Origin: Actinomycetota bacterium
GTDB lineage: Bacteria > Actinomycetota > Coriobacteriia > Anaerosomatales > Anaerosomataceae
DNA length: 64,000 nt
Reading direction: 5' to 3'
Assembly (NCBI GenBank): GCA_009773565.1
Contig: WSXY01000006.1
Location: 1 to 64,000, forward strand
The notes beneath the pieces were generated by a model that was not told where the DNA came from, made no database searches, and was given only the letters and a program-made list of their open reading frames with translations. This document shows, in pieces, positions 18,965-45,145 of this stretch; position 1 is the first letter of the stretch; every line of letters begins with the position of its first letter. A program made the position numbers and the translations under genes.

Positions 18965-20941
18965 GTGGTCGATGAAGCAACTCAACACGTGATCGACACC
19001 GTCGTCAGATCACTCGCGACCGCCGTGAAGACGCTACGGCTCTACCCTCCCACAAGCCCGATCCCCCGACAGACCGCCGAAGCCGCGGTTGACGCGCTTA
19101 CCCGCTTCTTCGTCGGCGAGCCGGTCCTCGCCCTGACAGTCGTCCGCAACGGCTTCTCATACGCCGGGGCACCGATCAGCGCTCCGGGTTCTGTGGAACT
19201 CGCGGACATGCTTACCGGCCACGGCATCGCCGAGGTCGACATCATGCCCGGTGTGCTCACGGATGACCTCATCGCATTCCTCGGCGTCATTCTGAAAGAC
19301 CCGGAGAACGTGCGTGCTGCTGGCGGTCCCGGCGCGATGCTCGCGGCGATCGGGATCGAGACCGTCCGCGTTTCTGACGTTGCGCTGACGGTTATGGAAG
19401 CTGACTCCTTCGCGCAGGCCGAGGACGTCGACGAGTTCCTGCGCGAGCTTGCAAGCGACCCTGACAAACTCGCCCTGTGGCTCTCAAGCGCAACGACCGG
19501 CGATCCGGCCGCGCTTGCCGAGGGCCTCGCGGAACTCTCCACGGTCGTCGGCGCTGGCGGCCTCGAAAACCTCATGACCTCACTTACCTCGGCATTCCTT
19601 CAGCAACAACAAGACGGCCGCGACGTTCTCCTGAAGCTGGCGGTCAAGAACGAGAATACGAGTGCGCTCATGTCCTCGGTGCTGGGGAACCTGAAAACGG
19701 GTGATATCGCGACATCTCTGGCAGGCGGCCTCTTTGGCAAGAACGTGCTCTCCATGTCGAGCATGCTTGCAGGCCTGCCGCTGGGGGCGCGAGTCTCCGA
19801 GGTTCTCGCCGAGGTAAAGCCGCTTCTCGCAACTGCGGGACACTCCGCCAGGGAGCTCTCATACCTCGAGCACATGCTTGAAGTTCGCGAGCGCGAGACG
19901 CCCGAGGCACCCATCACCGAGCAGCGCCCTGACTACGCAAAGGTCGCCGCGATCGCCGAGGTGAAACCCGAGGAGTACGAGCGGGCGCGATCCGAAGTCC
20001 AGTCCTCAATGGCTCGCATGAACGCCACCAGCGTGGCGACGATGTTGCAGCTCCTCGACCAGCAAAGCGATTTTGACCTCTACTGCAAGACGCTCGATGG
20101 TCTTGCTTCCATCATGCCCGCGCTCTTTGAGATGCGGGACCTCGCGCTTGCCAACAAGGTCATCGTCGAACTCGCATCTCGCGAGGCACGGACGGATAAT
20201 CCATGGCCCGAACTCACCGCGCGACTTCGCGAAACGATCGCCAAAGCGACCGGCCCCCGGTCGATGTCAGCCCTCCTACATGCAGTGGCCGACGACCCCT
20301 CACTCGCAGCGGTCGCACGAGATGTCATGCGCCGATCCGGCACTGCCGGACAGGCAGCATTCGTCCGCGAGGCGATCGGCATGCGCGACGGCGACGGCCT
20401 TAAGCTTGCCGAGGAGGTTCTCGGACGTCGCATCATCGACCTGCTGATTGCCGAGGCACCGCAGGCCCAGTGGTTCTCCCTCGGAGCCATCGTTGGACGA
20501 CTCGCCTTAGAAGGCGATCCCCGAAGCCAGAGCGCCATCGAAGCGCTCATGAAACGGTCGGACGAACCTTCCCGACAAGAAGTTGCCAAGGCACTCACCT
20601 CCGTCGGTTCGGACATGGCGCTCAGACAGATCGCAGCGCTGATGCGTGACCCAAGTCCGGAGGTGGCGATCATCGCAATACGTGCGGCGGGACGCTCCGT
20701 TGCCCCCGGTGCCGCAAGCGCCCTCGGGAAGCGCTTCGATGAGCTTGATTGTGACAACAAGGACTTCCTCGCATGCCGGGACATCATTTCCGCGCTCAGT
20801 CGCTCGGTCGACCCGGGTGCCCGCGGGGTACTTGAGAAGATCGCCGCGAGAAAAGCGCTGATCAAGCGCGGGCACTTTGCCGAGATAGGCGATCTTGCCA
20901 GAGAGGCGCTCGCCGCCTGCAACAAGGAAGGCGGCCGCTGA
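18965..20941 (+). CDS. HEAT-type protein with shared N-terminal module (module 2)
   Basis: A 658-aa soluble, mostly helical protein paralogous to the HEAT protein of module 1. Residues ~5-150 carry the shared domain (RLYPPTSPIPRQTAEAA, GVLTDDLIAFLGVILKDPENVRAAGG). The middle is helical and unassigned. The C-terminal ~200 residues contain HEAT-like repeats (RQEVAKALTSVGSDMALRQIAALMRDPSPEVAIIAIRAAG). GTG 18965 was preferred because GGGGGTGAG precedes it and the shared domain begins just after; GTG 18836 would add 43 non-conserved residues. Its TGA overlaps the ATG of the HD-GYP gene by one base, mirroring module 1. Confidence 0.83.
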   Translation: MVDEATQHVIDTVVRSLATAVKTLRLYPPTSPIPRQTAEAAVDALTRFFVGEPVLALTVVRNGFSYAGAPISAPGSVELADMLTGHGIAEVDIMPGVLTDDLIAFLGVILKDPENVRAAGGPGAMLAAIGIETVRVSDVALTVMEADSFAQAEDVDEFLRELASDPDKLALWLSSATTGDPAALAEGLAELSTVVGAGGLENLMTSLTSAFLQQQQDGRDVLLKLAVKNENTSALMSSVLGNLKTGDIATSLAGGLFGKNVLSMSSMLAGLPLGARVSEVLAEVKPLLATAGHSARELSYLEHMLEVRERETPEAPITEQRPDYAKVAAIAEVKPEEYERARSEVQSSMARMNATSVATMLQLLDQQSDFDLYCKTLDGLASIMPALFEMRDLALANKVIVELASREARTDNPWPELTARLRETIAKATGPRSMSALLHAVADDPSLAAVARDVMRRSGTAGQAAFVREAIGMRDGDGLKLAEEVLGRRIIDLLIAEAPQAQWFSLGAIVGRLALEGDPRSQSAIEALMKRSDEPSRQEVAKALTSVGSDMALRQIAALMRDPSPEVAIIAIRAAGRSVAPGAASALGKRFDELDCDNKDFLACRDIISALSRSVDPGARGVLEKIAARKALIKRGHFAEIGDLAREALAACNKEGGR

Positions 20942-22263
20942 TGGACGAGCGACTCGCAGTCGCAGCAGTCGGGGCGCTGTCGGCGACTCGAAAGGCGATG
21001 CACCTCTACCCTCCGGCACACCCGAAGTACCGCGAGACGGTCGATGACCTTGTCACGTCACTTGGTGCGTGTGTCATCGATGAGCCATTCACGCTCAACG
21101 CCCATCTCGGGCGTCTCTACCATGAGAGTCAGGTGCTTTCCTCCGACGCTCCCGGAATGCGATCGATGACCGAGGCGTTCGAAGCGCACCGGATCGAGAG
21201 CCTAACGTTCCAGAGCGACCTCTCAGAACACGACGCAGTCACGCTTGTAGAAGTGCTCGGACTGCGGCCGTCAGCCTCACTGGATATCGCAGAGGAGCTT
21301 GAGCGGCGCGGCGTCAGCAGCATCGCGGTGTGCGCCTTCATCGATGAGGAAGCTGAAGAGGCCGAGGAGCGCGACCGCGTACGCGAGCAAGATCGCGCGC
21401 TCTACCGGCGGTTGCTTGGCGTGCTGCGCACGCTCACGGCCCGAATCCAGCAGACCGGCGACCCGCAGGTGGGCGACGCCGGAATCATCGTCGAAGGTAT
21501 CCTCGCCCGCCTCATGGACGACAGCGCTGCGGTACTTGGTCTGGCGACGATGGGTGGACAGAGCGAGTCGCGCCTCTTCCACTCCATCAACACGATGATC
21601 TACGCGCTTACACTCGGCGCAGCACTCGGGATTCCCGAGGAAGGACTCACCTCACTTGGTGTGGCGGCGTTGCTTCACGATATCGGCAAGGTCGCCTTCG
21701 ATGAGGACGATCCTGAACAGGCCGACGCCGTGCACTTCCTCCACCCGAAAGTCGGCGCCGATATTCTGTCCCGCCTCCCCGAGCAAGACAGGGCACCGAT
21801 GCTTGTGGCCTACGAGCATCATATGGCTGCGGATGGATCTGGTTTCCCGGAGCGCGAGGCGGACTACGTCACCCACCCGTACAGCAGGATGGTGGCAATC
21901 GCCGATCGTTACGATCGTCTGACGACACCGGAAAACGGCGACCTGGCCCTTACGCCCGATCAGGCGGTCATTCAGCTCCTGCGTGACACGCTGGGGCTCC
22001 TCGACCAGACGCTCACGCGGCTGTTCGTCAAGGCGCTTGGAGTCTTCCCGGTCGGGTGTGTTGTGCGGCTGACGGATCACTCCGTCGGCGTCGTCTGTGC
22101 GCCCGGCGAGGACCCGCTCTTGCCGAGGGTGCGCCTCATGTACGACAGCGACGGGCTCGAAGACGCCTCGGGGCGCGAGATTGAGACGGCAGAATCGGGC
22201 CGAAGCATCGTTGAGATCGTCAGCCCGGACAACCTCGCAGTGACCGTGTCCGATCACCTCTAG
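20941..22263 (+). CDS. HD-GYP-related protein with shared N-terminal module (module 2)
   Basis: A 440-aa cytoplasmic protein. Residues 1-145 are the shared domain (MHLYPPAHPKYRETVDDL, DLSEHDAVTLVEVLGL). The HD domain has HSINTMIY, HDIGK (His246/Asp247), LHPKVGADIL, YEHHMAADGSGFP and IADRYDRLTT. Compared with canonical HD-GYP, the conserved Lys-x-Gly-x-Leu loop is replaced by an acidic stretch (FDEDDPEQADA) and GYP by GFP. The metal-binding His/Asp set appears complete, so activity on c-di-GMP or another cyclic dinucleotide is plausible but uncertain. The C-terminal ~70 residues (CVVRLTDHSVGVV to VTVSDHL) match the end of the module 1 HD-GYP protein. Confidence 0.88.
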   Translation: MDERLAVAAVGALSATRKAMHLYPPAHPKYRETVDDLVTSLGACVIDEPFTLNAHLGRLYHESQVLSSDAPGMRSMTEAFEAHRIESLTFQSDLSEHDAVTLVEVLGLRPSASLDIAEELERRGVSSIAVCAFIDEEAEEAEERDRVREQDRALYRRLLGVLRTLTARIQQTGDPQVGDAGIIVEGILARLMDDSAAVLGLATMGGQSESRLFHSINTMIYALTLGAALGIPEEGLTSLGVAALLHDIGKVAFDEDDPEQADAVHFLHPKVGADILSRLPEQDRAPMLVAYEHHMAADGSGFPEREADYVTHPYSRMVAIADRYDRLTTPENGDLALTPDQAVIQLLRDTLGLLDQTLTRLFVKALGVFPVGCVVRLTDHSVGVVCAPGEDPLLPRVRLMYDSDGLEDASGREIETAESGRSIVEIVSPDNLAVTVSDHL

Positions 22264-22280
22264 AGCCAGGCGCGCCCTGC

Positions 22281-22631
22281 TCAGGAGTGCGGGTTGATCT
22301 TGCGAAGCACGAGGGCGATCAGCGCGAGTCTACGGTTCCGGTCCTGGCAACCATCCACAAAACTCGTGACCGTGTCGCGCATCTCAATCGAAGGCTTGTA
22401 ACGGATAAGTCCGCCAGCGAGCGCAAGGATCTTGCCGTCACACAACGCGATGATCTCGGGATTGAGTTCCTCGGCGCGACGTCCGAGTCGAGATGCCAGA
22501 CCCTCGATATCGAGGACGGCGTCAGGGTTGCGATGAAAGAAAACAAGGATGTCCCACGTCAGCAGCGAGCGCACGTGACGGTCGACGAAGGCCATGACTG
22601 ATGGTCCGAGGACCCCTTCGAGGTCGTACAC
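22281..22631 (-). CDS. Small protein with predicted winged-helix fold, function unknown
   Basis: A 116-aa protein not recognised as a named family. The pattern VRSLLTWDILVFFHRNPDAVLDIEGLASRLGRRAEELNPEI, then a strand-turn-strand GKILALAGGLIRYKPS, looks like a helix-turn-helix with a beta wing, so DNA binding is possible. GTG 22631 has AGGAAGG six bases upstream and is preferred to GTG 22661. It converges on the module 2 HD-GYP gene with a 17-base gap. The ~290 bases upstream hold three direct repeats and no other gene. Confidence 0.55.
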   Translation of the reverse strand: MYDLEGVLGPSVMAFVDRHVRSLLTWDILVFFHRNPDAVLDIEGLASRLGRRAEELNPEIIALCDGKILALAGGLIRYKPSIEMRDTVTSFVDGCQDRNRRLALIALVLRKINPHS

Positions 22632-22783
22632 CCGTTGCCTTCCTCGAAACCGCAACCACACAGGACAAAACCTCGCGATGCCTCGCGAACGCTTGCGGCG
22701 GGTGCCCCTCCTCGTCGCGTGCTACGGCCGGCATCTCTCGAGCACACTCATTTAGTGTAGCGCATCACAAACAACTTACTACG

Positions 22784-22840
22784 CCCTGGGAATAAACGGA
22801 TATTCTGCGAGTATAAACGGTTTCCCTGGGTGATGAACGG
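22784..22840. repeat. Three spaced direct repeats (A/G)T(A/G)AACGG with flanking CCCTGGG
   Basis: ATAAACGG at 22792-22799 and 22813-22820 and ATGAACGG at 22833-22840 recur at 21- and 20-base intervals, two helical turns, so a regulator could bind one face. CCCTGGG occurs at 22784 and 22824, 40 bases apart. They lie 150-210 bases upstream of the winged-helix-like gene. The rest of 22632-22921 holds no gene; a minus-strand TACACT near 22754-22759 is a possible -10. Confidence 0.5.
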
Positions 22841-22921
22841 CTTGACGAGCGGTCGTCTCTGCGCGGATTCGCGGCGCCTTCAGGTGCTCGCGGCGTGCGG
22901 AAAACGTGGAGCCAACTGCCC

Positions 22922-23629
22922 CTATTTGTACCCGGCAAAGACCTCGTACGAGACACTTTCGTGGGCTAGGCCGAGATCATCGACGACCTTCCGCATCGCC
23001 TCAACCATCGGCGGCGGCCCCGCGACGATCCAGTGCAGCGAGACCGGATCGTCCACGTTCGCGCGGACAAGCTCCGCCGAGATGAAGCCAGACGCGCCAC
23101 TCCAGTCAGGGCCAGGGTGATCCAGTGTCTCCACATACGCGAAGCCCGGAACGCTGGTAGCGTAGCCACGAAACTCCTCGCCATACGGTATGCACGTCTC
23201 ATCCCTGTTGCCATAGAAGAGCGTGATGCTCAGGTCGCTCTTCCGCAGAACCGCGTGACGGATGATGCTGTGCGCCGGTGTAATCCCGATGCCACCCGCG
23301 AGAAAGCCGATCGCGCGCGCATCGTCGGGGACGGCGAGCCGCCCTTTCGGCCCGCTGACCGAAACCGCCGCTCCCGGCTCGAGCGCCAGCAGCGCATCCT
23401 TGAAAGCAGATCCGGTCAGCCTTGTGGTGAGCTCGATTGCCGGATCGTCCGGGGCATCAGCATGCGAGAAGGGCTTCGAAACCACGCCATCGCGAGTATC
23501 AAGCGTCAGCATGAAGAACTGGCCCGGCTTGAAGTCATAGCCCTCGGGCCGAGAGAAGCGGAATGTCGCGACACCCTCGCCGCAATCGGTCCGACCGATG
23601 AAGACGACCTCGTACTCCCCCGCACTCAT
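22922..23629 (-). CDS. FAD/NAD(P)-binding flavin or ferredoxin reductase
   Basis: A 235-aa cytoplasmic oxidoreductase of the ferredoxin-NADP reductase fold without a fused 2Fe-2S domain. The FAD-binding part has PGQFFMLTLD and KPFSHADAP (equivalent of the RxYS motif, with Lys-Pro-Phe-Ser), and the NAD(P)-binding part has GFLAGGIGITPAHSIIRHA and WIVAGPPPMVEAM. The aromatic end FAGYK is typical. The electron partner is unknown. The start overlaps the stop of the GGDEF-EAL gene by four bases, an unusual pairing that may tie a redox enzyme to c-di-GMP signalling. Confidence 0.88.
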   Translation of the reverse strand: MSAGEYEVVFIGRTDCGEGVATFRFSRPEGYDFKPGQFFMLTLDTRDGVVSKPFSHADAPDDPAIELTTRLTGSAFKDALLALEPGAAVSVSGPKGRLAVPDDARAIGFLAGGIGITPAHSIIRHAVLRKSDLSITLFYGNRDETCIPYGEEFRGYATSVPGFAYVETLDHPGPDWSGASGFISAELVRANVDDPVSLHWIVAGPPPMVEAMRKVVDDLGLAHESVSYEVFAGYK

Positions 23630-25317
23630 GAAATACCTGCCCAGGGCGTTCCTCGCTGGATGATCGCGGCAAGGTCGTCAGCCGGAATCGGCCGGCTGAA
23701 GAGGAACCCTTGCGCCATATCGCACTTGAGAAGTCGCAGGTACTGCAGTTGATCTGGCGTCTCAACGCCTTCTCCGACTGCATGGGACCTGAAACTGTGT
23801 GCGAGGGCAATAACAGCGGCAACGATTGCAGCATCGCCGGCGTTGCTGTCGATGCCGTCGATAAAGGAGCGATCGATCTTGAGCGAATCGAAGTGGAATC
23901 GCTTGAGATAACTGAGTGACGAGTAACCGGTTCCAAAGTCGTCCATCGCCACCTTGACTCCCATGGAGCCTATCTCGGACATGATCTCGGCCGATGCGAC
24001 GGGATCCTCCATGATGATGCTCTCGGTGATCTCCGTGGTGAGATGGCGACCCTCGATGCCGTTCTCGCTGATTGCATCTCGCAATGAGCCACACACGTCG
24101 CCATCCTTGAACTGACGTGCACTCACGTTGACAGACACCGAGAGTTCCGCCAGCCCGGCTTCTCGCCACACACGAACCTGACGACATGCCTCGTGGATGA
24201 CCCAGTCGCCCATCGGAACGATTAGCCCGCTATCTTCCGCGACCGATATGAACGCGCCGGGCGCGAGTAGGCCATCGGTGGGATGATTCCAGCGAAGGAG
24301 CGCTTCTACCGCCGTCATATCGCCGCCGGGTATCGTCACGATCGGCTGGTAATACAGGGCGAACTCTCCTTGCTCAAGCCCACGTCGAAGATCCGCCTCC
24401 GTTCGCGAGTATCGCTCCGCCTCGTGCTGTAAGCTCTCGTCGAAGATCTCGTAGCGGCCGTGACCTTGTTGCTTGGCCCGGTGCATCGCCGAATCGGCGT
24501 TTCGGATGATCGCATCCGTTTGGAGCTGAGAAGCGCCACCGCCGATCACGGCTCCGAGGCTCGCTGACAACACAACCGACTCGCTGTCGCTCGCAAATGG
24601 CGAATTGAAGGCGCCGAGTATGCGCTCGAGCAGCTTCAGGGGTCCGCTACCTCCAGCGTCCACGTCCGAGAGGATGGCAAACTCGTCGCCACCGGTACGG
24701 GCGACCACGTCATCGGGGTGAACCGCCTCGACAAGACGACCGCCGACCTGGGCGAGAATGCGATCGGCCGCCATGTGTCCCACGCGCGCATTCACCTGGC
24801 GGAAGCCGTCGAGATCGAGATAGACGACCGCAAAGCGGTACTCCGCATCATGCGACGCCCGGCTCACCATGAGCCGTAGCCGATCGAGAAAGTGTGCGCT
24901 ATTCGAAACACCCGTAAGCGCATCGCGTGTCGCGCCCTCGGCAAGTGAACGTTCCCGTGCAAGGTCATCGGTCAGGTCCGTTACGATGAGCAGGAGTGCG
25001 GGTGTACCCTCGAATTCGACACTCGTGCAGTAGACCCCGGCGTCGAAGGCATGACCTGACTCATCGGTGTGCGTCCAGGGGCCGGAACGGTGTCCTGCTG
25101 CTGCAGCCTCGACGAGCATGACTTCAAGTCCTACCCGCTCTGTCTCCCGCCAGAGAAGTTCTGCAGATGTACCCGTAAGCCCGCCGGTCACGCCATAGGT
25201 ATCCTCGGCGCGGGCGTTCGCAGCAAGTATCTTCAGGCCCGGGCGCTCCAGAACGAGCGCAGGCAGCGGACTATTCTGGAAGAGGTCCTGGCGATGGCTC
25301 TCTGTTTGAGCTGTCAT
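23626..25317 (-). CDS. PAS-GGDEF-EAL cyclic di-GMP signalling protein
   Basis: A 563-aa cytoplasmic protein. Residues ~8-125 form a PAS-like sensor (LFQNSPLPALVLERPGLKILAANARAED). The GGDEF domain keeps the motif at residues 209-213 (TGGDEFAIL) and the EAL domain keeps EAL at residues 338-340 with DDFGTGYSSLSYLKRF, GEGVETPDQ and QGFLFSRP. Both catalytic halves look intact, so it could make or degrade c-di-GMP. It has no membrane helix. It is divergent from the Mo-cofactor lipoprotein; a perfect inverted repeat lies between them. Confidence 0.93.
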   Translation of the reverse strand: MTAQTESHRQDLFQNSPLPALVLERPGLKILAANARAEDTYGVTGGLTGTSAELLWRETERVGLEVMLVEAAAAGHRSGPWTHTDESGHAFDAGVYCTSVEFEGTPALLLIVTDLTDDLARERSLAEGATRDALTGVSNSAHFLDRLRLMVSRASHDAEYRFAVVYLDLDGFRQVNARVGHMAADRILAQVGGRLVEAVHPDDVVARTGGDEFAILSDVDAGGSGPLKLLERILGAFNSPFASDSESVVLSASLGAVIGGGASQLQTDAIIRNADSAMHRAKQQGHGRYEIFDESLQHEAERYSRTEADLRRGLEQGEFALYYQPIVTIPGGDMTAVEALLRWNHPTDGLLAPGAFISVAEDSGLIVPMGDWVIHEACRQVRVWREAGLAELSVSVNVSARQFKDGDVCGSLRDAISENGIEGRHLTTEITESIIMEDPVASAEIMSEIGSMGVKVAMDDFGTGYSSLSYLKRFHFDSLKIDRSFIDGIDSNAGDAAIVAAVIALAHSFRSHAVGEGVETPDQLQYLRLLKCDMAQGFLFSRPIPADDLAAIIQRGTPWAGIS

Positions 25318-26833: not shown

Positions 26834-27038
26834 CTGTACCCTCCGTAACGATATGGCACGCCACGCACGGGCGACCGAAGTGACCGGCTGGCTTCTCCTG
26901 ATCGGGCGAAACCGGCAGGATCATCACATGCACTGCAACAAAAGCAAGACCCGCGACCGCGAGGAAGCCGACGACCACGTACATCGCGCGTTTCCACAGC
27001 GGGAGCGGCTGGTTTGAATCGATTGGCTCTTCAGTCAT
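26811..27038 (-). CDS. Membrane-anchored mini c-type cytochrome (single CxxCH)
   Basis: A 75-aa protein with one N-terminal transmembrane helix (residues ~18-43, no cleavage site) and a single haem-binding motif CVACH (Cys58, Cys61, His62) near the C-terminus, on the outer face if the Lys/Arg-in rule holds. It is shorter than standard class I cytochromes and resembles a minimal NapC/NirT-like segment. It should need the cytochrome c maturation machinery, none of which is in this window. GAGAGG precedes ATG 27038. Divergent from the ferredoxin gene. Confidence 0.72.
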   Translation of the reverse strand: MTEEPIDSNQPLPLWKRAMYVVVGFLAVAGLAFVAVHVMILPVSPDQEKPAGHFGRPCVACHIVTEGTDVIDVGN

Positions 27039-27097
27039 GGACCTCTCCTCTGGAATACAATGTGTACTGTACCACCGTAAATCGGGAAGGCGAGCGT

Positions 27098-27934
27098 ATG
27101 TGCGAGTTCTGCGTGCAGCACGGCGACGGAAAGCTCTGGTATCTCGAGGCGTCGAATTACGCGTATGACCTCGAAAACGATCTGGAGCGACGAGGATACC
27201 TCGTCGAGTTCGTCACCACCTTCGATAAGCGAATGACGACCGGCATCAAGGTGCTCGACATGATGAAGGTCGTCCCCCGGCCGATCGGTGACGCGATACG
27301 AGGCGTCGTTTCCAAGCGCCAGCAGAAGGACCACTTCGGTCAGCCGGTTCCACTCGAAGACTGCGAGAAGATCCTCGACATCGCCACGAGCGTCGTGCAG
27401 CTGCCCTGCGTGTGTCGCCACCGCGAGGGAGAGCCCGAAGAGGGCTACTGTCTCGCAATCACGGTCGGTCCGGTCGACGGGGCGCTGGATGAAGCGTTTC
27501 GCGGCTTTGCAGACGGACCCGACACTTCGAAGTTCCAGCGCCTTAGCAAGGACGAAGCGCTTGCCGTGCTTCGCCGTTGCGAGTCCGAAGGGCTGATGCA
27601 CTCCGTCTGGACATTCAAGACGCCGTTCATCTCGGCAATCTGTAACTGCAACCTGGCCTCCGGCTGCATGGCGATGAAGACGACGCTGGATTACCACCTC
27701 AAGGTCATGTGGAAGGGCGAGTACGTCGCCTCGGTCGATTCCGATCTCTGCACCGCCTGCGGGGCATGCTTCGGCCGCTGCCCGTTCTCCGCGATCAAGC
27801 CCGACCTTGCGAAGCGGGCCGTCGTGACAGCAGAGGACTGCTACGGATGCGGAACATGCCGCTCGGCCTGCCGGAAGAACGCCATCTCACTTCGCGCGCG
27901 CGGGCTCGTACCGGAAGTCGCGAACAGCTGGTAG
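27098..27934 (+). CDS. 4Fe-4S ferredoxin-domain protein with extra cysteine motifs
   Basis: A 278-aa cytoplasmic Fe-S protein. The C-terminus has two ferredoxin motifs (CTACGACFGRCP and CYGCGTCRSAC) enough for two 4Fe-4S clusters. Upstream are CEFCVQH at the start, LPCVCRHREG with a later GYC, and ICNCNLASGC, resembling the CxCR...CNCC pattern of ferredoxin-like proteins found in anaerobes, which may bind a further cluster. The redox partner is unknown. ATG 27098 has GGAAGG eight bases upstream; TACAAT at 27056-27061 is a candidate -10. It lies between the mini cytochrome (divergent) and a convergent nitroreductase. Confidence 0.82.
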   Translation: MCEFCVQHGDGKLWYLEASNYAYDLENDLERRGYLVEFVTTFDKRMTTGIKVLDMMKVVPRPIGDAIRGVVSKRQQKDHFGQPVPLEDCEKILDIATSVVQLPCVCRHREGEPEEGYCLAITVGPVDGALDEAFRGFADGPDTSKFQRLSKDEALAVLRRCESEGLMHSVWTFKTPFISAICNCNLASGCMAMKTTLDYHLKVMWKGEYVASVDSDLCTACGACFGRCPFSAIKPDLAKRAVVTAEDCYGCGTCRSACRKNAISLRARGLVPEVANSW

Positions 27935-27940
27935 GAACAG

Positions 27941-28744
27941 CTACCGCGGCGCGAACCGACCGACATCGTCTCCGTCGAGAAGCTCCCAGTCGCCCTCGAC
28001 TCCCTCGCCGAGCGCGCCGAGTTCTGCATGGAGCATGGCGATGCCACAATCGAGGCGCCTGGATACCTTCGGCGTCTTCAGCCCCTCGCAGCCGATGACG
28101 AGCGCGCCTTCTTCGAGGCGAAGCTTCCAGGGCTGACGGTGCATCGCCGACGGCGCTACCTGAACAGCGGCCGCTGCGGCCCGGGCCCAGGTGGGCCACT
28201 CGTCAGAGCCAGGAGCGAACTCAGCGACATCTTTGCGGCGCTTGGGCCTGCCAAGACCGAAGACAACCCGCTCCTTCATGCTGATCCGGTCGACGGCGTG
28301 ACCGAGCGGACTAACCGCAAACAGCCGCTCGCCCGAGCGTGCACCCGCGAGCCTCGTCCCTTGTGCCGGATCGAAGAGCCCGCCAATCCAGCAGGTTGCA
28401 AGACCAAGGCGCGAGGCCTCAAGCACCGCAGCTTCTCCGGTATAGCCGATAGCGGCATCGACGCCTGCCTCGCCTGCCCGGCCGATGAACGCGAGTGCGG
28501 ATGGTGCATTCGAGACGCCCCCATACGACCCGAGAATCCCCAGGAAGAGTGCCTGCGGTGCGCTCGGAATGAGCACGACCCGCGCCGTATCAAACGGGCG
28601 GAACGTCTCGCAGTGCTGCGCGAGCGCCTCGAGGGCCTCGGCACCCAGCGCGATTCCATCGTACGAGCGCCGTGAACGACGCTCCCAGAGGGCCTCAAGC
28701 CACCCGGCCGCGAGGGCCGGATCCGCAAGTCGCGCCACGGCCAT
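27941..28744 (-). CDS. Nitroreductase-fold oxidoreductase
   Basis: A 267-aa cytoplasmic protein of the TM1586-like nitroreductase group. Both halves of the monomer look like tandem nitroreductase folds: WERRSRRSYDG, AAIGYTGEAAVLEASRLGLATCWIGGLFD and then VQVAPSAMHRQPWKLRLEEGAL. The WERRSxRxY start and SAMHRQPW motif are FMN-contacting regions in the family. The substrate is unknown. Its ATG overlaps the TGA of the upstream kinase-like gene by one base, so it is the last gene of the minus operon descending from the ABC exporter. Confidence 0.8.
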   Translation of the reverse strand: MAVARLADPALAAGWLEALWERRSRRSYDGIALGAEALEALAQHCETFRPFDTARVVLIPSAPQALFLGILGSYGGVSNAPSALAFIGRAGEAGVDAAIGYTGEAAVLEASRLGLATCWIGGLFDPAQGTRLAGARSGERLFAVSPLGHAVDRISMKERVVFGLGRPKRRKDVAEFAPGSDEWPTWARAAAAAVQVAPSAMHRQPWKLRLEEGALVIGCEGLKTPKVSRRLDCGIAMLHAELGALGEGVEGDWELLDGDDVGRFAPR

Positions 28745-30771
28745 CAGCTACACCGAAGCGGAATGCGGAGCGTGAACGCCGCGCCTCGACCGGGCTCGCT
28801 CTTGACGCTGATGCTTCCCTGGAGAACCCCTGCCAGACGCTTGCTTACGGCAAGGCCGAGGCCGGTTCCCTCGTGGGTCCCCGCCGACTGCCTTGTGACC
28901 TGGCGAAACTCCTCAAAGATGTGGGGCAACTCGGCGGATTCGATCCCGACTCCCGTATCGCTCACCGTGATCACGCACTCGTCTTCAGCGTAGGTCGCCT
29001 CAATCGTGACAGTGCCCGCAGTCGTGTACTTCAGAGCATTCGAGAGCAACTGCAGGATGATTTGCTCAAGCTTGTTTCGGTCGGTGTACGCATCAAGCGA
29101 TACATCCTGCGGCATGCGAACCTCCAGGCGGAGGCCACGCTCTTCGGCAACAGGCCTGATACCGAGAGCGACCGAGTCTATCAGCTCACCCACATCAAAC
29201 TGTTCGGGGTCACAGCGCTCGACACCGGTATCGAGCCGGGAAAGTTCAAGCACGTCATCGAGAAGTGCGGCGAGCGTTCGTCCGGCATCAAGGATCATGT
29301 TCGTCTGAACCTGCTGTTCGTCATTAAGTGGGCCCGCCATGCCCCGACTCATCAGGTCGCTGAAGCCGATGATCGTGTGCAGCGGCGTTCTAAGCTCAAG
29401 GCCGACGTTCTCGTAGAACGATTCGCTCGCGATCGTTGTCTGCTGAAGCTCGGCGTTGGATTTCATGAGGTCATCGGTGCGGCGGCGCAGCAGACGCTCG
29501 AGTTCCTTCTTGTAACGCTCAAGCTCAGAGGCGGCGTGATGGCGCTCGGTGACGTCGTGGATGATGGTGTAGAGGAGTTGTCGTCCGTGCACCGCGATCG
29601 GACCCGAGTAGACCTCGACGTCGCGAACCGACCCGTCAGCAAGCCGATGGTGGAACTGGAAGTAGTCGCGCGTTCCGTCGGCCGCCCGCGACAGCTCTTT
29701 GCGAACATCGTCAGGATCGAGCGTGTTGATCTGCATGACGCTCATCGTGGTGAGATCCTCATGTGTGTGCCCGTAGAAGGCGCATGCAGCGTTGTTTGCG
29801 TCGAGAATCTGTGTGGAAACGGGATCGACGAGCATGATCGGCAGATGGCTGTCCTCGAAGAGGGCCGAGTAGCGCTCCTCGCTTTCGCGCAGGTCACGCT
29901 CCGCGCGTAAGTGCCGGAGAGACGGCGCGATCCGGGCTGCGAACAGCCGCACCATGCCGCGAACAATCGCTGGGGACTCGATCGGGTCGCGAGAGTAGAC
30001 GCCCAACACGCCAACCCGACCGCCGTATTCATCGAAGAGGTAGGTGCCGACGTACGATTCGAAACGCTCTTTAGCCGCCCAACTGTCGTCAGGGTAGGCC
30101 GCGAGCAACCCGTTCGCCTGGACCATTGCACGGCGCCCGCGAGAGCCGGTTGCCGGGGTCCCGACCATCTCCCACTGGAAGTCCGTAAGAATCTCGCCGT
30201 CGAGAACAGCGGCAAGCGTATTCCCGTGTGTAGGCCGGTCGGGCTCAATCTCAGCCAACACGCCGCCGTCAGATCCAAGCCGCTCCACGAGCAGCCGGAG
30301 AATCGGGAGGAACGACACATCCTCCGCCCCCGCCGATGCGTCGAGAGGATGTGGATGCAGCGCAGCACCGTCGCGCTCGTCAGGTGAGTCATAGGCGAAG
30401 ACGATCGCACCGCCGGGGGCACCATGGCCAGTCGCGAGCGGCGCCACCACAAACGACGTATCCTCCGACCGCGACGTCGCTGTTCGAATGCGACCTTCGA
30501 TCGTGAAGAACGAGGCAGCATCTTTAGACTTGCTCGTGATGAGCTCCCAGAGATCCATTCCGTCGAATGTGAGAACGCGCCGGTCAAGCCGGTCCGGGGC
30601 TGCGACGAGAAGGTGCTCTGCGGGACGATTCACCAGCGTTATGCGACCGTCGCCTGCGTAGACAACGATCGGGGTCGGCATCATTTCCGCGAGCGCGTCA
30701 ATGAACGCCAGGGGGCCTAGTTCAGCCGCCTGCGAAATCGCGCCCGGGCTGCGGTCGTCGAGTTGGCTCAC
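28744..30771 (-). CDS. Histidine kinase-like protein lacking the phosphoacceptor His
   Basis: A 675-aa soluble sensor. It has an N-terminal PAS (MPTPIVVYAGDGRITLVNRPAE), a GAF-like domain (residues ~155-290), a second PAS (ALFEDSHLPIMLVDP), a short coiled coil, HisKA and HATPase_c. The H-box reads FYENVGLELRTPLHTIIGF where FxxxxSHELRTPL is expected, so residue 458 is Leu (codon CTT). The ATP-binding N, G1 and G2 boxes (NKLEQIILQLLSNALKYT, SDTGVGI, GTGLGLAVS) look intact. It may act as a phosphatase, an ATP-binding pseudokinase or a heterodimer partner. GTG 30771 has AAGGAT upstream; a longer start at 30843 is possible. Confidence 0.85.
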   Translation of the reverse strand: MSQLDDRSPGAISQAAELGPLAFIDALAEMMPTPIVVYAGDGRITLVNRPAEHLLVAAPDRLDRRVLTFDGMDLWELITSKSKDAASFFTIEGRIRTATSRSEDTSFVVAPLATGHGAPGGAIVFAYDSPDERDGAALHPHPLDASAGAEDVSFLPILRLLVERLGSDGGVLAEIEPDRPTHGNTLAAVLDGEILTDFQWEMVGTPATGSRGRRAMVQANGLLAAYPDDSWAAKERFESYVGTYLFDEYGGRVGVLGVYSRDPIESPAIVRGMVRLFAARIAPSLRHLRAERDLRESEERYSALFEDSHLPIMLVDPVSTQILDANNAACAFYGHTHEDLTTMSVMQINTLDPDDVRKELSRAADGTRDYFQFHHRLADGSVRDVEVYSGPIAVHGRQLLYTIIHDVTERHHAASELERYKKELERLLRRRTDDLMKSNAELQQTTIASESFYENVGLELRTPLHTIIGFSDLMSRGMAGPLNDEQQVQTNMILDAGRTLAALLDDVLELSRLDTGVERCDPEQFDVGELIDSVALGIRPVAEERGLRLEVRMPQDVSLDAYTDRNKLEQIILQLLSNALKYTTAGTVTIEATYAEDECVITVSDTGVGIESAELPHIFEEFRQVTRQSAGTHEGTGLGLAVSKRLAGVLQGSISVKSEPGRGAAFTLRIPLRCS

Positions 30772-30847: not shown

Positions 30848-31732
30848 CTAGTCCGAGGCCGGACGCCGCCCCTTCATTGTGACGAGCGTGACGCCAACGA
30901 GGGCAACTGCGCCGCCGAGTAGCGTCATGAGACCCGGCACCTCATGTATCCATATCCAGGCAATGACCGTCGCATTCACCGGCTGTACGTACAGGAAGCT
31001 TGAGGCGATGGACGCCGGGAGCTTCGAGAGTGCGTGCGAGTACAGCACGTAGGCGATGGCGCCCGGAAAGATGCCCATGTAGACGACCGCCACGATGGGT
31101 CCCGTCCCCGCATGCGGAAACTGCTCGAGCAATCCTGGAAGGAACACGAGCATCGGTAGCGTCCCGAGCCAGATTGAGTACGAGGTGAACGCAACCGGGC
31201 TGTACTTGTCGAGCAGCGGCTTGGAAACCACGAAGTAGCCTGCTGTGCTGACTGCCGCGAGCAGTACAAGAAGCGCCGCAGGCTGCAGCGCCACGCCGCC
31301 GCCCTCGCCGAGCGTGATCAGCGCGACACCCGAGAACGCGACGGCGATACCCACCCAGCCCCACACGGTGAGGCGCTCGCCAAGAAGGACCATCGCCATC
31401 AACGCCGTGAAGATCGGCCCGGAGGAGATGATGAGACTCGCCGCGCCCGCCGTCACCGCCACCTCGCCGAAGTTCAGCGCGATGTGATAGATGGTGATGC
31501 CGAGAACACCGGCAAGCGCGATTCTCGGCACATCGGCGAAGTCGGGTAGTCGCATACGCGTCGCCAGTGCAAAGACTGCGAGGACCGCGGAAGCGGTCCC
31601 GAAGCGAAGCAGGGCGACCTGGCCGGGACCGAAGCCGACAAGCCCGGCCTTGATGCCCGCGAACGCGGACGCCCACAGCAGGAGCGCGACGGCGACTGCG
31701 ATGCCGGTTGCGGCGTCGATTCTTCTCGGCAC
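30848..31732 (-). CDS. EamA/DMT-family transporter
   Basis: A 294-aa inner-membrane protein with ten hydrophobic segments arranged as two EamA repeats (WASAFAGIKAGLVGFGPGQVALLRFGTA in the first; FTSYSIWLGTLPMLVFLPGLL and VQPVNATVIAWIWIHE in the second). DMT transporters export amino acids or metabolites. It starts at GTG 31732, one base after the stop of the ABC permease, so it is part of that operon. The substrate cannot be predicted. Confidence 0.88.
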   Translation of the reverse strand: MPRRIDAATGIAVAVALLLWASAFAGIKAGLVGFGPGQVALLRFGTASAVLAVFALATRMRLPDFADVPRIALAGVLGITIYHIALNFGEVAVTAGAASLIISSGPIFTALMAMVLLGERLTVWGWVGIAVAFSGVALITLGEGGGVALQPAALLVLLAAVSTAGYFVVSKPLLDKYSPVAFTSYSIWLGTLPMLVFLPGLLEQFPHAGTGPIVAVVYMGIFPGAIAYVLYSHALSKLPASIASSFLYVQPVNATVIAWIWIHEVPGLMTLLGGAVALVGVTLVTMKGRRPASD

Positions 31733-36173: not shown

Positions 36174-38264
36174 ATGAACGGACTCAGCAGTCTCGCGTTC
36201 GCCGATGGTTGGAATGGCTCCCCGGGTTCCAGAGTGGGGAGGTGCTCTTGGCGCGCATGCGCGTCAATCGTAGCCCTCACTCTCTGTCTCGCGCTCGGCT
36301 CGGCTACAACTGCCGTCGCCGCCCCTCGGGTCGTCCGTGTCGGCGTTTACGAGAATGAACCGAAGGTCTTCACTGACAAAGACGGACGGTCCTCTGGTAT
36401 TTTCATCGATCTCATCGAGAAGATCGCTGCCGACGAGGGCTGGGACATCGAGTACGTACACGGTGACTGGGCGGACGATCTTGCGGCACTCGAAGAGGGC
36501 CGAATCGACCTCATGCCCGACGTGGCATACACCGAAGAGCGCGACCAACTGTTCGACTTTCACAAGACGCCTGTGGTCGAGAGCTGGTCGTACGTGTACG
36601 CGGCCTCCGGCCAGCGAATCGACCGCATCTCCCAACTCAACGGCAAGCGAGTGGCTGTGCTCACAGGGTCCATCCAGGAGACGACGTTCCGGGAGATGGT
36701 CGAAGGGTTTGGTCTGGACGTGACCATCGTCGGAGCCGATTCGCTGAAGGCGGCATTCGAACTGACGGCTAACGGCGGCGCGGACGCCGCGATCGCCAAC
36801 TATCTCTTCGGAGACTACTTCTACACGCAGTACGGGCTCACGAAGACCCCGATCGTCTTCAACGCAGTCCCCCTCTACTTCGCCACAGCTCAGGGGCGTA
36901 ATCCCGAGCTCCTGGCGGCGATCGATGCGCATCTGAACACGTGGATGCAGGAGCCGAACTCCGTCTACTTCACGATTCTCAGCAGCTACACCGCGAAGGA
37001 CCAGGCCCGCATCCCTGTCTACGTCTTCTGGACCCTTGGCGTCATCGGAGGGCTTCTTGCGATCTCAGCCGTGCTGCTCCTGGTGCTCCGACGCCTAGTG
37101 AACCGGCGCACACAACACCTCAGGCAGGCCCTCGTCGACCTCCAAGAGAGCGAAGGTAAGTACCGTCGGCTGGTCGAGGGTTCACCGGACATCATCTACT
37201 CCGTATCCCGGAAGCGTGGCGGGCTCTACCACTCCCAACGTGTCGAGGCGGTCCTCGGCTATACGCCTGAGTACCTCGCGGAATTCCCGTACTTCTGGGT
37301 GGAGTGTATTCATCCGGACGACCGCTCGGCGGTCGACGCCGCGCTGGAAGCCGCTCAGAACGGGGAGCCGCTCGACATCGAGTATCGGATCAAGGACAGC
37401 CGCGGGGAGTGGCACTGGTTGCGAGATCGGGCCATCGGCACCGTGAGCGTCGGGGATGACTTCATCACCGAAGGTGTGGTCACGGATATCACCGCCCGCA
37501 AGCAGGCAGAGGAGAAGGTGCTGCTGCTGAACGCCGAGCTAGAGCAACGGGTCGAAGAACGAACAGGGCAGCTGCAGAGTGCCAACAAGGAGCTCGAAGC
37601 ATTCTCCTACTCGGTTTCGCACGATCTGCGTGCCCCGCTGAGACACATCAACGGCTTCGTCGACTTGCTCATGTCGCGCTCGAGGGGCGAGCTCAGCGAC
37701 AAGTCCCGCCACTACCTCGACTCGATCGCGCAGGCGGCGGGCCAGATGGGAGCGCTCATCGATGACCTGCTCGCGTTCTCTCGGACGAGTCGCGCGGAGC
37801 TCCGAATGGGCGCTGTCGACATGAACGTCGCTGTCCGAGACGTAATCGCATCGCTCCGCGACGATCTCGACGGACGCGAAGTGGAATGGGATGTGTCGTC
37901 ACTGCCCGATGTGGTCGGCGACAGCGCCATGCTTCGGCAGGTGTGGGGCAACCTGCTCGAGAACGCCGTCAAGTACACCCGCGGCAAAGAGCCCGCACGC
38001 ATCGGAGTGGGTATAAGCGAAGAGGCGGATGATGTGGTGTTCTTCGTCCGTGACAACGGGGTGGGGTTCGACATGCAGTACGCGAGCAAACTCTTCGGCG
38101 TCTTCCAGCGCCTCCACACGTCGGCCGAGTTCGAGGGAACGGGAGTCGGCCTGGCCAACGTGCGTAGGATCGTCGACCGTCACGGTGGTCGGACATGGGC
38201 CGAGGCCGAGCCAGACCGGGGTGCCACGTTCTTCTTCTCGATCCCCAAGCGGAAGGTCATTTGA
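36174..38264 (+). CDS. Sensor kinase with periplasmic solute-binding domain
   Basis: A 696-aa transmembrane sensor. A signal anchor (residues ~30-50) precedes an SBP_bac_3-type periplasmic binding domain (residues ~52-270: VRVGVYENEPKVFTDKDGRSSGIF, GRIDLMPDVAYTEERD). One helix follows (residues ~280-305), then a PAS domain (VEGSPDIIYSVSRKRGG), a coiled coil, HisKA with His483 in YSVSHDLRAPLRH and an HATPase_c with N and G boxes. The H-box is of the phytochrome-like (CikA/Cph1) type. Ligands are probably small molecules such as amino acids. AGGAGG precedes ATG 36174. Its stop overlaps the response regulator start (TGATG). Confidence 0.92.
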   Translation: MNGLSSLAFADGWNGSPGSRVGRCSWRACASIVALTLCLALGSATTAVAAPRVVRVGVYENEPKVFTDKDGRSSGIFIDLIEKIAADEGWDIEYVHGDWADDLAALEEGRIDLMPDVAYTEERDQLFDFHKTPVVESWSYVYAASGQRIDRISQLNGKRVAVLTGSIQETTFREMVEGFGLDVTIVGADSLKAAFELTANGGADAAIANYLFGDYFYTQYGLTKTPIVFNAVPLYFATAQGRNPELLAAIDAHLNTWMQEPNSVYFTILSSYTAKDQARIPVYVFWTLGVIGGLLAISAVLLLVLRRLVNRRTQHLRQALVDLQESEGKYRRLVEGSPDIIYSVSRKRGGLYHSQRVEAVLGYTPEYLAEFPYFWVECIHPDDRSAVDAALEAAQNGEPLDIEYRIKDSRGEWHWLRDRAIGTVSVGDDFITEGVVTDITARKQAEEKVLLLNAELEQRVEERTGQLQSANKELEAFSYSVSHDLRAPLRHINGFVDLLMSRSRGELSDKSRHYLDSIAQAAGQMGALIDDLLAFSRTSRAELRMGAVDMNVAVRDVIASLRDDLDGREVEWDVSSLPDVVGDSAMLRQVWGNLLENAVKYTRGKEPARIGVGISEEADDVVFFVRDNGVGFDMQYASKLFGVFQRLHTSAEFEGTGVGLANVRRIVDRHGGRTWAEAEPDRGATFFFSIPKRKVI

Positions 38265-38719
38265 TGCTCGAACTGAAGACAATCCTGCTCGCCGAGGACA
38301 ACGAGATGGACGTCGAGCTCACGCTCGAGGCACTCGCCGACCACAACCTTGCGAACTCCGTGATCGTCGTTAGCGACGGCGTCGAGGCAATGGAGTACCT
38401 ACGACGTGAAGGCGCGTACGCCGATCGCCCGTCAGGCAATCCCGCGGTCATGCTGCTGGATATCAAGATGCCACGGATGGACGGGCTCGAGGTACTGCGC
38501 GAAGTACGTGCAGACCCCGAGCTCCAGATGCTCCCGGTCGTCGTCTTGACCTCTTCGCGTGAGGAGCAGGACTTGCTCACCGCATACGCTCTCGGCGTGA
38601 ATGCGTACGTCGTCAAACCGGTCGCCTTCGCGGATTTCATAGACGCGGTGACAAAGCTCGGCGTCTTCTGGGGGATCATCAACGAGCAGCCCCCAAGAGG
38701 GGTGTCACGAGATGACTGA
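38264..38719 (+). CDS. Single-domain response regulator (Rcp1-like)
   Basis: A 151-aa receiver with no output domain. The acidic pocket (LLAEDNEMDVELT), phosphoacceptor Asp66 (VMLLDIKMPRMDG), Thr/Ser (VVLTSSREEQD) and Lys (YVVKP) are all present. Rcp1-type regulators pair with phytochrome-like kinases, in keeping with the gene upstream. The start is fixed by the one-base overlap with that kinase, and the end overlaps the next kinase by eight bases. It probably shuttles phosphate between the two kinases or signals by protein contact. Confidence 0.92.
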   Translation: MLELKTILLAEDNEMDVELTLEALADHNLANSVIVVSDGVEAMEYLRREGAYADRPSGNPAVMLLDIKMPRMDGLEVLREVRADPELQMLPVVVLTSSREEQDLLTAYALGVNAYVVKPVAFADFIDAVTKLGVFWGIINEQPPRGVSRDD

Positions 38720-40295
38720 ACGCGAAGTGATTCGGGAGCCCCTGACCGTCCTATGCCTCGAAGACATGCCGGCAGACGCTGAGCTGATCCGCGAGCATCT
38801 CGCCGATGAGGAGTTCGACCTCACGATGGACGTCGCCGCGGACCGGGCGCAGTTCGTGCAACTCCTCGATTGCGGAGCGTACGGCGTCATCCTCGCCGAC
38901 TACACGCTTCCGGACTTCGATGCTCCGGCCGCTCTGGAGCTGGCGAAGGCGCGTTGCCCTGACACGCCGTTCATCTGCGTGTCGGGAACAATCGGCGAAG
39001 ACCGCGCGGTAGAGCTGCTCAAGCTCGGCGCGACAGACTACGTCCTAAAAGATCGTATGGGCAGGCTCGCTTTCGCGATTCGTCGTGCGCTCGACTCGGC
39101 CAGGCGACAGAGAGAGCGCCGCGCGAGCGACGATCTCAATCGGCTCCTGGTGGAGAACATGGCTGACGTCCTGTGGGTGATGGACGCGGCATCGCGCAGG
39201 TTCACCTACGTCAGCCCGTCGGTGGAGCGACTCCGGGGCTTCTCGGCCGAGGAGGTCATGGCGGAACCCGTCGAGGCGACCATGCGACCTGAGGTGGCAC
39301 GCGAGGTGATTGGTACGTTGCCCGCTCGCATCGAGTCGTTCGTGTCCGGAGACCCCGGCGTGGTTTCACGGGTTGACGAGATCGAGCAGATACACAAGGA
39401 CGGCTCGGTCCTGCAGACTGAAGTCGCAACGACGCTCCGGCTCAACGATCACGGTGGAGTCGATATCATCGGCGTCACACGGGATATCAGCAAGCGAAAG
39501 CGGGTCGAGGGCGAACTCGCCGACTACCGCGCGCACCTCGAAGAACTGGTGGAGGAGCGCACGGAGCGGCTGCGGCAGGCCAACCTCGCACTTGAGGAGG
39601 CCGACCACGCGAAGAGTGCATTCCTCGCGCAGATGAGCCACGAACTGCGGACACCGCTCAACTCGGTCATCGGGTTCTCAGACATCCTGCTGACTGGAAT
39701 GGCCGGGGAACTCAACGACGAGCAGTCGAAGCAGATCGGGATGATCAACCAATCGGGAAAGCACCTGCTGGCCCTCATCAACGACATCCTGGACCTGTCC
39801 AAGGTGGAGGCGGGCAGTGTCGTCGTGGTGCCCGAGCCGGTCGACGTATCTGCGCTCGTGGAGGACGTGGTAGCGAGCTTCTCCGTCCAGGCGAAAGAAC
39901 GCGGGCTTGCGCTCGTCAAGGAGCTCCCCCCGACTCAGGTGACGCTCACCACCGATGAGCGGCTGGTCAGGCAGATACTCCTGAACCTGCTGAGCAATGC
40001 GGTCAAGTTCACCGAGAGCGGCTCTATCACAGTGGCGGTTTCCACCCGTGAGCACTCGCTAGACCTGGCCGTGCGCGATACGGGGACGGGTATCGCCGCC
40101 GAGCATCTGTCGCAGGTATTCGATGAGTTCTGGCAGATTCCCGATGCCGTGAAGACCAACCGGACAGGCACGGGCCTGGGGTTGACTATCTCAGCGCACC
40201 TGGCTGCGCTCCTGGGCGGCAGCCTGACGGTCGAGAGCACATTCGGTGAGGGTTCGACGTTCACGCTCACGCTACCGAAGGCGACTTCTGACTGA
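38712..40295 (+). CDS. Hybrid sensor kinase, receiver-PAS-HisKA-HATPase
   Basis: A 527-aa soluble kinase. An N-terminal receiver has Asp63 (VILADYTLPDFDAP), Ser/Thr (ICVSGTIG) and Lys (VLKDRMG). A PAS domain (ENMADVLWVMDAASRRFTYVSP), a coiled coil, HisKA (His310 in QMSHELRTPLNSVIGF) and HATPase_c follow. The receiver first, kinase second order suggests it receives phosphate or a signal from the upstream pair. Its HisKA region is closely related to those of the kinases at 40535 and 28744. A 27-base hairpin follows 40 bases after the stop. Confidence 0.92.
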   Translation: MTEREVIREPLTVLCLEDMPADAELIREHLADEEFDLTMDVAADRAQFVQLLDCGAYGVILADYTLPDFDAPAALELAKARCPDTPFICVSGTIGEDRAVELLKLGATDYVLKDRMGRLAFAIRRALDSARRQRERRASDDLNRLLVENMADVLWVMDAASRRFTYVSPSVERLRGFSAEEVMAEPVEATMRPEVAREVIGTLPARIESFVSGDPGVVSRVDEIEQIHKDGSVLQTEVATTLRLNDHGGVDIIGVTRDISKRKRVEGELADYRAHLEELVEERTERLRQANLALEEADHAKSAFLAQMSHELRTPLNSVIGFSDILLTGMAGELNDEQSKQIGMINQSGKHLLALINDILDLSKVEAGSVVVVPEPVDVSALVEDVVASFSVQAKERGLALVKELPPTQVTLTTDERLVRQILLNLLSNAVKFTESGSITVAVSTREHSLDLAVRDTGTGIAAEHLSQVFDEFWQIPDAVKTNRTGTGLGLTISAHLAALLGGSLTVESTFGEGSTFTLTLPKATSD

Positions 40296-40335
40296 CGACC
40301 GGGCACCGCAGACCCACGGCCACCCGTCACAAACG

Positions 40336-40362
40336 CAGAGGCCAGAAGCGAAACCGCCTCTG
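40336..40362. terminator. Hairpin between the kinase gene and tRNA-Ala (possibly bidirectional)
   Basis: CAGAGGC and GCCTCTG pair around a 13-base loop. On the minus strand it is followed by CGTTTGTG, so it may terminate tRNA-Ala; on the plus strand it may end the phosphorelay operon. Confidence 0.5.
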
Positions 40363-40378
40363 ACCTCGTGTGTTGCTA

Positions 40379-40454
40379 TGGTGGAGACGAAGGGGCTCGA
40401 ACCCTCGACCTCAGGCTTGCAAAGCCCGCGCTCTCCCAGCTGAGCTACGTCCCC
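40379..40454 (-). tRNA. tRNA-Ala (anticodon TGC)
   Basis: A 76-base cloverleaf with CCA encoded. The acceptor stem GGGGACG pairs with CGTCTCC (one G-U), the D-arm has GTAGCTCAGCTGGGAGAGC, the anticodon loop TTTGCAA gives UGC, and the T-arm carries GGTTCGAACCC. It lies between two kinase genes on the minus strand. Confidence 0.95.
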
Positions 40455-40464
40455 GCGACGCAAG

Positions 40465-40470
40465 AGTATA
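40465..40470 (-). promoter_or_regulatory. Probable -10 element of tRNA-Ala
   Basis: TATACT on the minus strand, ten bases before the tRNA 5' end; an ATGACG about 19 bases further upstream is a weak -35. Confidence 0.5.
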
Positions 40471-40534
40471 GCACCGTCGGACCCTTGCGCGTCATTTTCC
40501 TTCAAGCGAGAGCAACACCACCGGCGGCCGCGGA

Positions 40535-42874: not shown

Positions 42875-43186
42875 CCCTATGTTATGTGGTCGACACAAGC
42901 ATATTCCCCGAACAGATTGCGCGCCACCACGCGCGAAGAGCACACATGAGTGTTTATCGGCATTTATCGAACTGGAAACGAACACGCAATGTACGGCCCC
43001 TAGGCTGAAACACGAGAGGACTCGCCCGCCGTTTCCCGGCGACGCTCCCGTCCGCACAACCGGCAGACAATGGCGTCTGCCGAACCGGCACAGGTCTTTT
43101 AGACACCGGTTCGGCGACGAGCGATCAGCGATCTGCGGTGGCCCCCTCTGGACAGTGAGGTTGTCGGACAACAGGAGGTGTGACTC
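42875..43186. promoter_or_regulatory. Divergent control region between sensor kinase and amt
   Basis: No gene in 312 bases. Near its right end, GCCGAACCGG (43079-43088) and CCGGTTCGGC (43106-43115) form a perfect 10-bp inverted repeat whose 17-base loop contains a second pairable element (GTCT, TTT, AGAC). The nested hairpin ends 71 bases before the amt ATG and could be an attenuator or operator. AGGAGGT precedes amt. Confidence 0.5.
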
Positions 43187-44806: not shown

Positions 44807-45145
44807 ATGAAGAAGATAGAGTCGATTGTCCGCCCCGAGAAGCTCGAAGCGGTCAAGGAGGCGCTCGTTGGCCTCGGACACGCTGGCCTGACAGTCACCG
44901 AGGTCAAGGGTCACGGAATCCAGAAGGGCATCACCCAGCAGTGGCGCGGTCAGGAGTACTCGATCGACTTGCTGCCCAAGGTCATGATCATGGCCGTCGT
45001 GAACGACCATGAGGTCTCCGATGTCATCGCCGCAGTGAGCGATGCTGCCAGGACCGGCATGATCGGTGACGGCAAGATCTTCGTAAGCAGCGTGGAAGAT
45101 ATTGTGCGGATTCGTACCGGCGAGAGTGGAACCGAGGCGATCTAG
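44807..45145 (+). CDS. glnK: P-II nitrogen regulatory protein
   Basis: A 112-aa trimeric signalling protein that binds ATP, ADP and 2-oxoglutarate and gates Amt through its T-loop. Tyr51, the uridylylation or adenylylation site, is kept in the T-loop (QQWRGQEYSIDLLPK), and the C-terminal ATP-binding IGDGKIFVSSVEDIVRIRTGE is canonical. It starts immediately after the amt stop codon. A strong hairpin 48 bases after the stop ends the operon. Confidence 0.96.
   Translation: MKKIESIVRPEKLEAVKEALVGLGHAGLTVTEVKGHGIQKGITQQWRGQEYSIDLLPKVMIMAVVNDHEVSDVIAAVSDAARTGMIGDGKIFVSSVEDIVRIRTGESGTEAI

Follow-up and report, generated by a model that had tools for sequence, protein, structure and literature searches.

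The window (the whole stretch of 64,000 nucleotides analyzed here, contig WSXY01000006.1) carries on its reverse strand, at 28744–30771, the gene of a pseudo-histidine kinase of 675 amino acids, with a GTG start at 30771 and a TGA stop at 28744–28746. The assignment is based on the open frame, the Pfam domains (PAS, HisKA, and HATPase_c), and the syntenic orthologs. On the same strand, the ATG of a TM1586-type nitroreductase gene (27941–28744) shares one base with the kinase stop (TGATG), which makes co-translation of the two genes probable in this genome. A nitroreductase gene is found also 3′ of the kinase gene in the genera g6, g7, and g2 and in genomes G013 and G022, but not in all loci. 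Two conserved neighbors were used as synteny markers: on the 5′ side, an EamA transporter gene (30848–31732, reverse strand) and, on the 3′ side, a convergent gene for a [4Fe-4S] ferredoxin-like protein (27014–27934, forward strand). The nitroreductase overlap and the ferredoxin neighbor hint at redox physiology, although the nitroreductase is absent from some loci. Farther on the 3′ side, at 20941–25317, occur HD-domain and GGDEF-EAL genes (of the c-di-GMP type), which belong to the conserved 3′ neighborhood in several genera. In the loci examined, there is no cognate response regulator beside the gene. The promoter and terminator scan gave nothing above shuffled sequences, and there was no plasmid match at E 1e-60.

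The protein contains no transmembrane segment (maximum Kyte–Doolittle value of 1.4). All its domains are given here on the reverse strand. In the predicted structure (mean pLDDT 72), the N-terminal part is a PAS-like domain (about residues 30–128, 30388–30684), followed by an α/β domain tentatively assigned as GAF-like (about residues 155–265, 29977–30309). The latter assignment derives from the predicted structure and from a full-length Foldseek match to a bacteriophytochrome with the PAS–GAF order, and concerns a low-confidence part of the model (pLDDT about 50–75) over which Pfam gave no match. A second PAS domain (residues 299–411, 29539–29877; Pfam PAS_8, PAS_4, and PAS) is the most conserved input domain, with a mean identity of 57% in clade I and 66% in clade II of the orthologs (clade I comprises genera g1, g3, g5, and g9, and clade II genera g2, g4, g8, g10, and g11). 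The DHp helices (residues 448–525, 29197–29430) are recognized by Pfam HisKA (7.9e-13) and by alignment, and their fold matches HK853, DivL, and RetS. The CA domain (residues 526–675, 28747–29196) is defined by Pfam HATPase_c (9.5e-28; both values are above the cut-offs), by alignment, and by the predicted structure, where the pLDDT is mostly above 90.

The H box of the protein reads SESFYENVGLELRTPLHTIIGF, with Leu at position 458, the phosphoacceptor site. The codon at 29398–29400 is CTT (read as the complement), as the earlier note had it, and the paralogous boxes that it quoted for comparison, QMSHELRTPL at 38712 and SMSHELRTPL at 40535, are likewise correct. Of the 28 HisKA domains in the genome, the remaining 27 all have the His. 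The published rate of HisKA domains without His is 0.9%, or 722 of 76,471 (PMC12632262), a rate that predicts about 0.25 such domains among 28; one case alone is therefore unremarkable, and the notable part is the pattern across the family. Set against this rate and the 27 paralogous domains, the absence of the His from 21 of 25 syntenic orthologs (window included) exceeds chance. Of the features of an active HisKA kinase, the protein has the HisKA DHp and HATPase_c domains and the G1 (DTGVG), F (F619/F622), and G2 (GTGLG) boxes; it has neither the His nor the N-xxx-N of the N box, which is Q-xxx-N. It is thus a pseudo-histidine kinase as defined in PMC12632262, with a kinase fold lacking the residues for at least one kinase function. 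By its sequence, the protein is incapable of autophosphorylation at the canonical site.

Full-length syntenic orthologs are present in 24 of the 26 other genomes of the same taxonomic family, a small sample (27 genomes, many of them metagenome assemblies). The family is placed in the Anaerosomatales (Coriobacteriia) from named relatives that are metagenome assemblies. In 34 other genomes of the order, the full-length query found no full-length relative, and only the PAS–HisKA–HATPase part matches. At 22 of the 25 loci, the EamA gene was detected on the 5′ side, and at 24 the ferredoxin gene lies on the 3′ side. In the tree, the orthologs form one branch apart from the paralogs (support 100/99); this and the synteny rule out a horizontal or paralogous mix-up. 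Over the full gene, dN/dS is between 0.08 and 0.21 in seven close pairs (NG86; a rough estimate, since some pairs have dS above 1), 55 residues are invariant across the family, and the frame is uninterrupted in 24 of 25 full-length genes. Open frames and low dN/dS rule out a pseudogene. The sequences thus show a gene under purifying selection that keeps one chromosomal position throughout a whole bacterial family. In G022, which gave no full-length hit, the gene is cut by the contig end. In G019, a g9 genome (L231:7948-8772, G019:C125), the kinase, nitroreductase, and ferredoxin genes are cleanly missing together between EamA and hemolysin III, a joint loss of all three. The ortholog of G023 (HGW-Actinobacteria-6) is frameshifted near residue 185, with two tblastn pieces in different frames (L035:6530-6543, G023:C2 around 30270).

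At site 458, 21 of the 25 orthologs (window included) are without His: Leu occurs in the window protein and three g3 proteins, Ala in the four g9 proteins, Val in g5 (one protein), Gln in seven proteins of g2, g4, and g8, and Arg in five of g10 and g11. Three proteins, from g6 and g7, have His458 within a canonical SHELRTP. In G012 (g3), His is present at 458 but the adjoining Glu is Gln, so that His and the neighboring Glu occur together only in g6 and g7. The earlier note saw no annotation artifact in the substitution, and this stands: His was sought in close relatives, and the nearest genus, g9 (four genomes), has Ala, with a canonical box in no clade I member, which rules out a sequencing error or a recent mutation. 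On the tree, His versus not-His requires at least three changes. The gene tree favors two losses of the His, and one loss is not rejected (AU test, p 0.40); in the RpoB–RpoC tree, the order of the three clades is not settled. The RpoB of clade II genera is itself about 30–50 residues longer, with open frames of 1220–1226 amino acids versus 1170–1191 elsewhere in the family (L187-L190, L192, L195).

The N, G1, and G2 boxes had been described in the earlier note as looking intact. This is so for the second N-box Asn (N578) and for the G1, F, and G2 boxes, but the first N-box residue, canonically Asn, is Gln574 (codon CAG, 29050–29052, reverse strand). The CA residues N578, K581, D605, G607, G609, F619, F622, G635, G637, and G639 are all in place. 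With that first Asn excepted, the retention of nucleotide contacts proposed in the note extends throughout clade I, where all the other contact residues checked are intact. Residue 574 is Gln or Glu in 10 of 10 clade I members (Gln in g1, g9, and g5; Glu in g3) versus 0 of 163 other cores. In CpxA, Glu249 contacts both His248 and Asn356, and N356Y is kinase-deficient (PMC3904827). The window protein has therefore lost two of three autokinase residues: Leu stands in place of the His, and Gln in place of the Asn by which the His-activating Glu is oriented. In clade II, the first N-box Asn is kept, with P463S, the second F-box Phe missing, an ATP lid shorter by 7 residues, and a changed G2 box. 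In the partial gene of G022, both N-box Asn are lost. The two clades have changed different catalytic features, and thus the kinase was dismantled in different ways. In clade I, including the window protein, ATP probably continues to bind, with an allosteric role; in clade II, with its shortened lid, ATP binding is probably poor or nil. The g3 orthologs L013, L014, L015, and L016 display E-xxx-N, the signature of GHKL ATPases, in a histidine-kinase-like protein.

The DHp face around the lost His is retained. Among the orthologs, T462, L464, T466, I467, and G469 are invariant and E459 and R461 vary once each, while site 458 (entropy 2.43) is more variable than the protein median (1.81). The E-xx-T motif of HisKA phosphatases (Glu at H+1, Thr at H+4) is present, with E459 in 24 of 25 and Thr462 (29386–29388, reverse strand) in 25 of 25. 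In CrdS and HK853, the H+1 Glu is needed for the kinase activity only and the H+4 Thr/Asn for the phosphatase activity only; the His enhances the phosphatase activity and is not required for it (PMC3510030).

Excluding the window protein, the His has been lost in 20 of 24 readable counterparts while the rest of the gene was kept, and for this reason the product is most likely a functioning signaling protein, and a kinase no longer. Somewhat better than even is the chance that it acts as a cytosolic pseudo-histidine kinase with its output via the retained DHp face, either as a phosphatase of a response regulator or as an integrator that binds one. In such a mechanism, the dimeric sensor would be retained, the PAS and GAF-like domains would read a cytosolic signal (redox, ligand, or nucleotide), and this reading would move the DHp–CA core. 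The output would reach a response regulator, with moderate confidence, through the face E-x-R-T-x-L-x-T-I-x-G. One option is dephosphorylation of the regulator, for which Thr462 and Glu459 are kept and the His would not be strictly needed; the other is binding of a phosphorylated receiver, as DivL does with DivK∼P (PMC4211667). The lack of a cognate response regulator next to the gene in the loci examined counts against either option. The invariant Thr462 is compatible with a phosphatase role. Still, the conservation of T462 is common to its structural neighbors and may serve docking of the regulator or helix packing instead of phosphatase chemistry. Against a phosphatase speaks also P463S of clade II, adjoining T462: in CrdS, mutation of the corresponding Pro lowers the phosphatase activity (PMC3510030). 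Glu459, a kinase residue by the CrdS/HK853 data, is kept although a pure phosphatase would not need it. Neither does the database distribution of His-less domains favor phosphatase activity as the general role of pseudo-kinases (PMC12632262). The earlier note had offered dominant-negative, phosphatase, and ATP-gated roles; sequence alone does not separate them.

DivL of Caulobacter (Tyr550 for His; PDB 4q20), the nearest studied analog, is itself neither kinase nor phosphatase (PMC4211667), another point against the phosphatase option. The likeness lies in PAS repeats followed by a DHp–CA core without the phosphoacceptor His and in a substitution conserved across a species group; by sequence, DivL ranks second among the PDB matches (E 1.4e-26), and by fold it is one of the best (Z 23.3). 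However, DivL is not an ortholog of the window protein, and Tyr is nearly fixed in DivL orthologs, whereas here five residues occur beside a His-bearing sister branch, with Tyr in 0 of 25 orthologs. The top fold match is the crystal of HK853 H260A (6rh8, Z 24.5). The canonical HisKA kinases HK853 and CpxA share the fold and the boxes but have both the His and the first N-box Asn.

A second reading, to which we give a real but distinctly minor chance, is that the DHp bundle pairs with an active kinase encoded elsewhere in the genome and sets its activity, in the manner of RetS–GacS, RocA–CovS, or ChrS–HrrS. The DHp helices are conserved, and several of the 27 His-bearing HisKA proteins of the genome are about 40% identical to the protein in PAS–HisKA–HATPase. 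RetS of Pseudomonas (PDB 6dk7), a kinase-like protein whose target is another kinase, has the closest whole-core fold by rmsd (Z 21.6, 1.9 Å over 210 residues); it is a hybrid protein of the membrane, and its receiver domains have no counterpart in the window protein. RocA of Streptococcus pyogenes is a precedent as a pseudokinase acting without autophosphorylation (PMC7028121), but it has six transmembrane segments, its candidate His is dispensable rather than absent, and its partner, CovS, is known. The ChrS variant of Corynebacterium glutamicum is an actinobacterial pseudo-histidine kinase that alters the signaling of a paralog (PMC9491836); it differs in being a laboratory-evolved CA truncation rather than a natural family.

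Such pairing meets the difficulty that the kinases near the gene do not accompany it in the ortholog loci and that no co-conserved partner was found. At 36174–45145, the window contains three more histidine kinases (with solute-binding, REC-PAS, and Cache-like sensors) and a single-domain receiver (38195–38719), which overlaps kinase genes on both sides and so suggests one operon; these genes adjoin an ammonium transporter and PII-like pair (43187–45145). Control of the kinases at 38712 and 40535, suggested in the earlier note, is unsupported: none of the 24 ortholog loci has their distinctive N-terminal parts within about 9 kb of the gene, save that in G004 one sequence partially matches the sensor region of 40535. 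Nor is the kinase at 36174 or the receiver at 38195 encoded within that distance in any of the 24 loci. A partnership with the kinases at 36174, 38712, and 40535 thus finds no support in synteny. Output to a response regulator, as phosphatase or as sensor of a phospho-receiver, is favored over control of another kinase in a heterodimer because the surface that faces the regulator is intact in the DHp–CA core and because the H+4 Thr/Asn serves a phosphatase activity for which the His is not required (PMC3510030), but the sequence does not decide between the two.

We regard as improbable that the clade I core has been reused as an ATP-driven switch, a nucleotide clamp of the GHKL type. The E-xxx-N of g3 is the motif of GyrB/Hsp90-type ATPases, in which a Glu in the first place of the N box acts as the general base (PMC3904827), and all other nucleotide-contact residues accompany the Gln or Glu at 574. 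The catalytic Glu of the GyrB/Hsp90/MutL type is, however, found only in the g3 orthologs; the Q-xxx-N of the window protein would be expected to bind without hydrolysis. Gln or Glu may equally be drift tolerated once activation of the His was unneeded, and clade II keeps the Asn and loses the lid instead. Slow decay toward loss of the gene appears very unlikely: the clean absence from G019, the loss of both N-box Asn in G022, and the frameshift of G023 would fit it, but the open frames, the low dN/dS, and the invariant residues speak against it. Least credible of all is transfer of the phosphate to His465 (H+7, 29377–29379, reverse strand), the sole His of the H-box region, one heptad past the lost site: a His at +7 is confined to this genus and g9, both with Leu or Ala at 458, and is found in 0 of 36 non-orthologous kinases of the alignment, but the remaining His-less branches have Gln at +7 and the His-bearing branch has Tyr, residue 574 has changed too, and Glu459 does not adjoin His465.

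Pseudo-histidine kinases are a kind already known. What is new is a family-wide locus with canonical and His-less orthologs, a replacement residue that is not fixed, and a linked change of Asn into Gln or Glu. We consider it unlikely, though worth stating, that the locus holds an evolutionary series from a canonical kinase (g6, g7) to two differently built pseudo-kinases in the orthologs: one would keep the ATP contacts with Q-xxx-N or E-xxx-N, possibly as an ATP-gated or ATP-hydrolyzing switch free of phosphotransfer, and the other would drop the ATP lid and work without nucleotide. The well-known bacterial pseudo-histidine kinases are few, and usually the derived state alone is at hand. Here, a His-bearing form and two His-less sorts occur at one locus in related genomes, together with linked substitutions of the Asn by which the His-activating Glu is positioned. 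With such a locus, one can test directly what a sensor kinase is still able to do once phosphotransfer is gone and in what sequence its catalytic residues then disappear.
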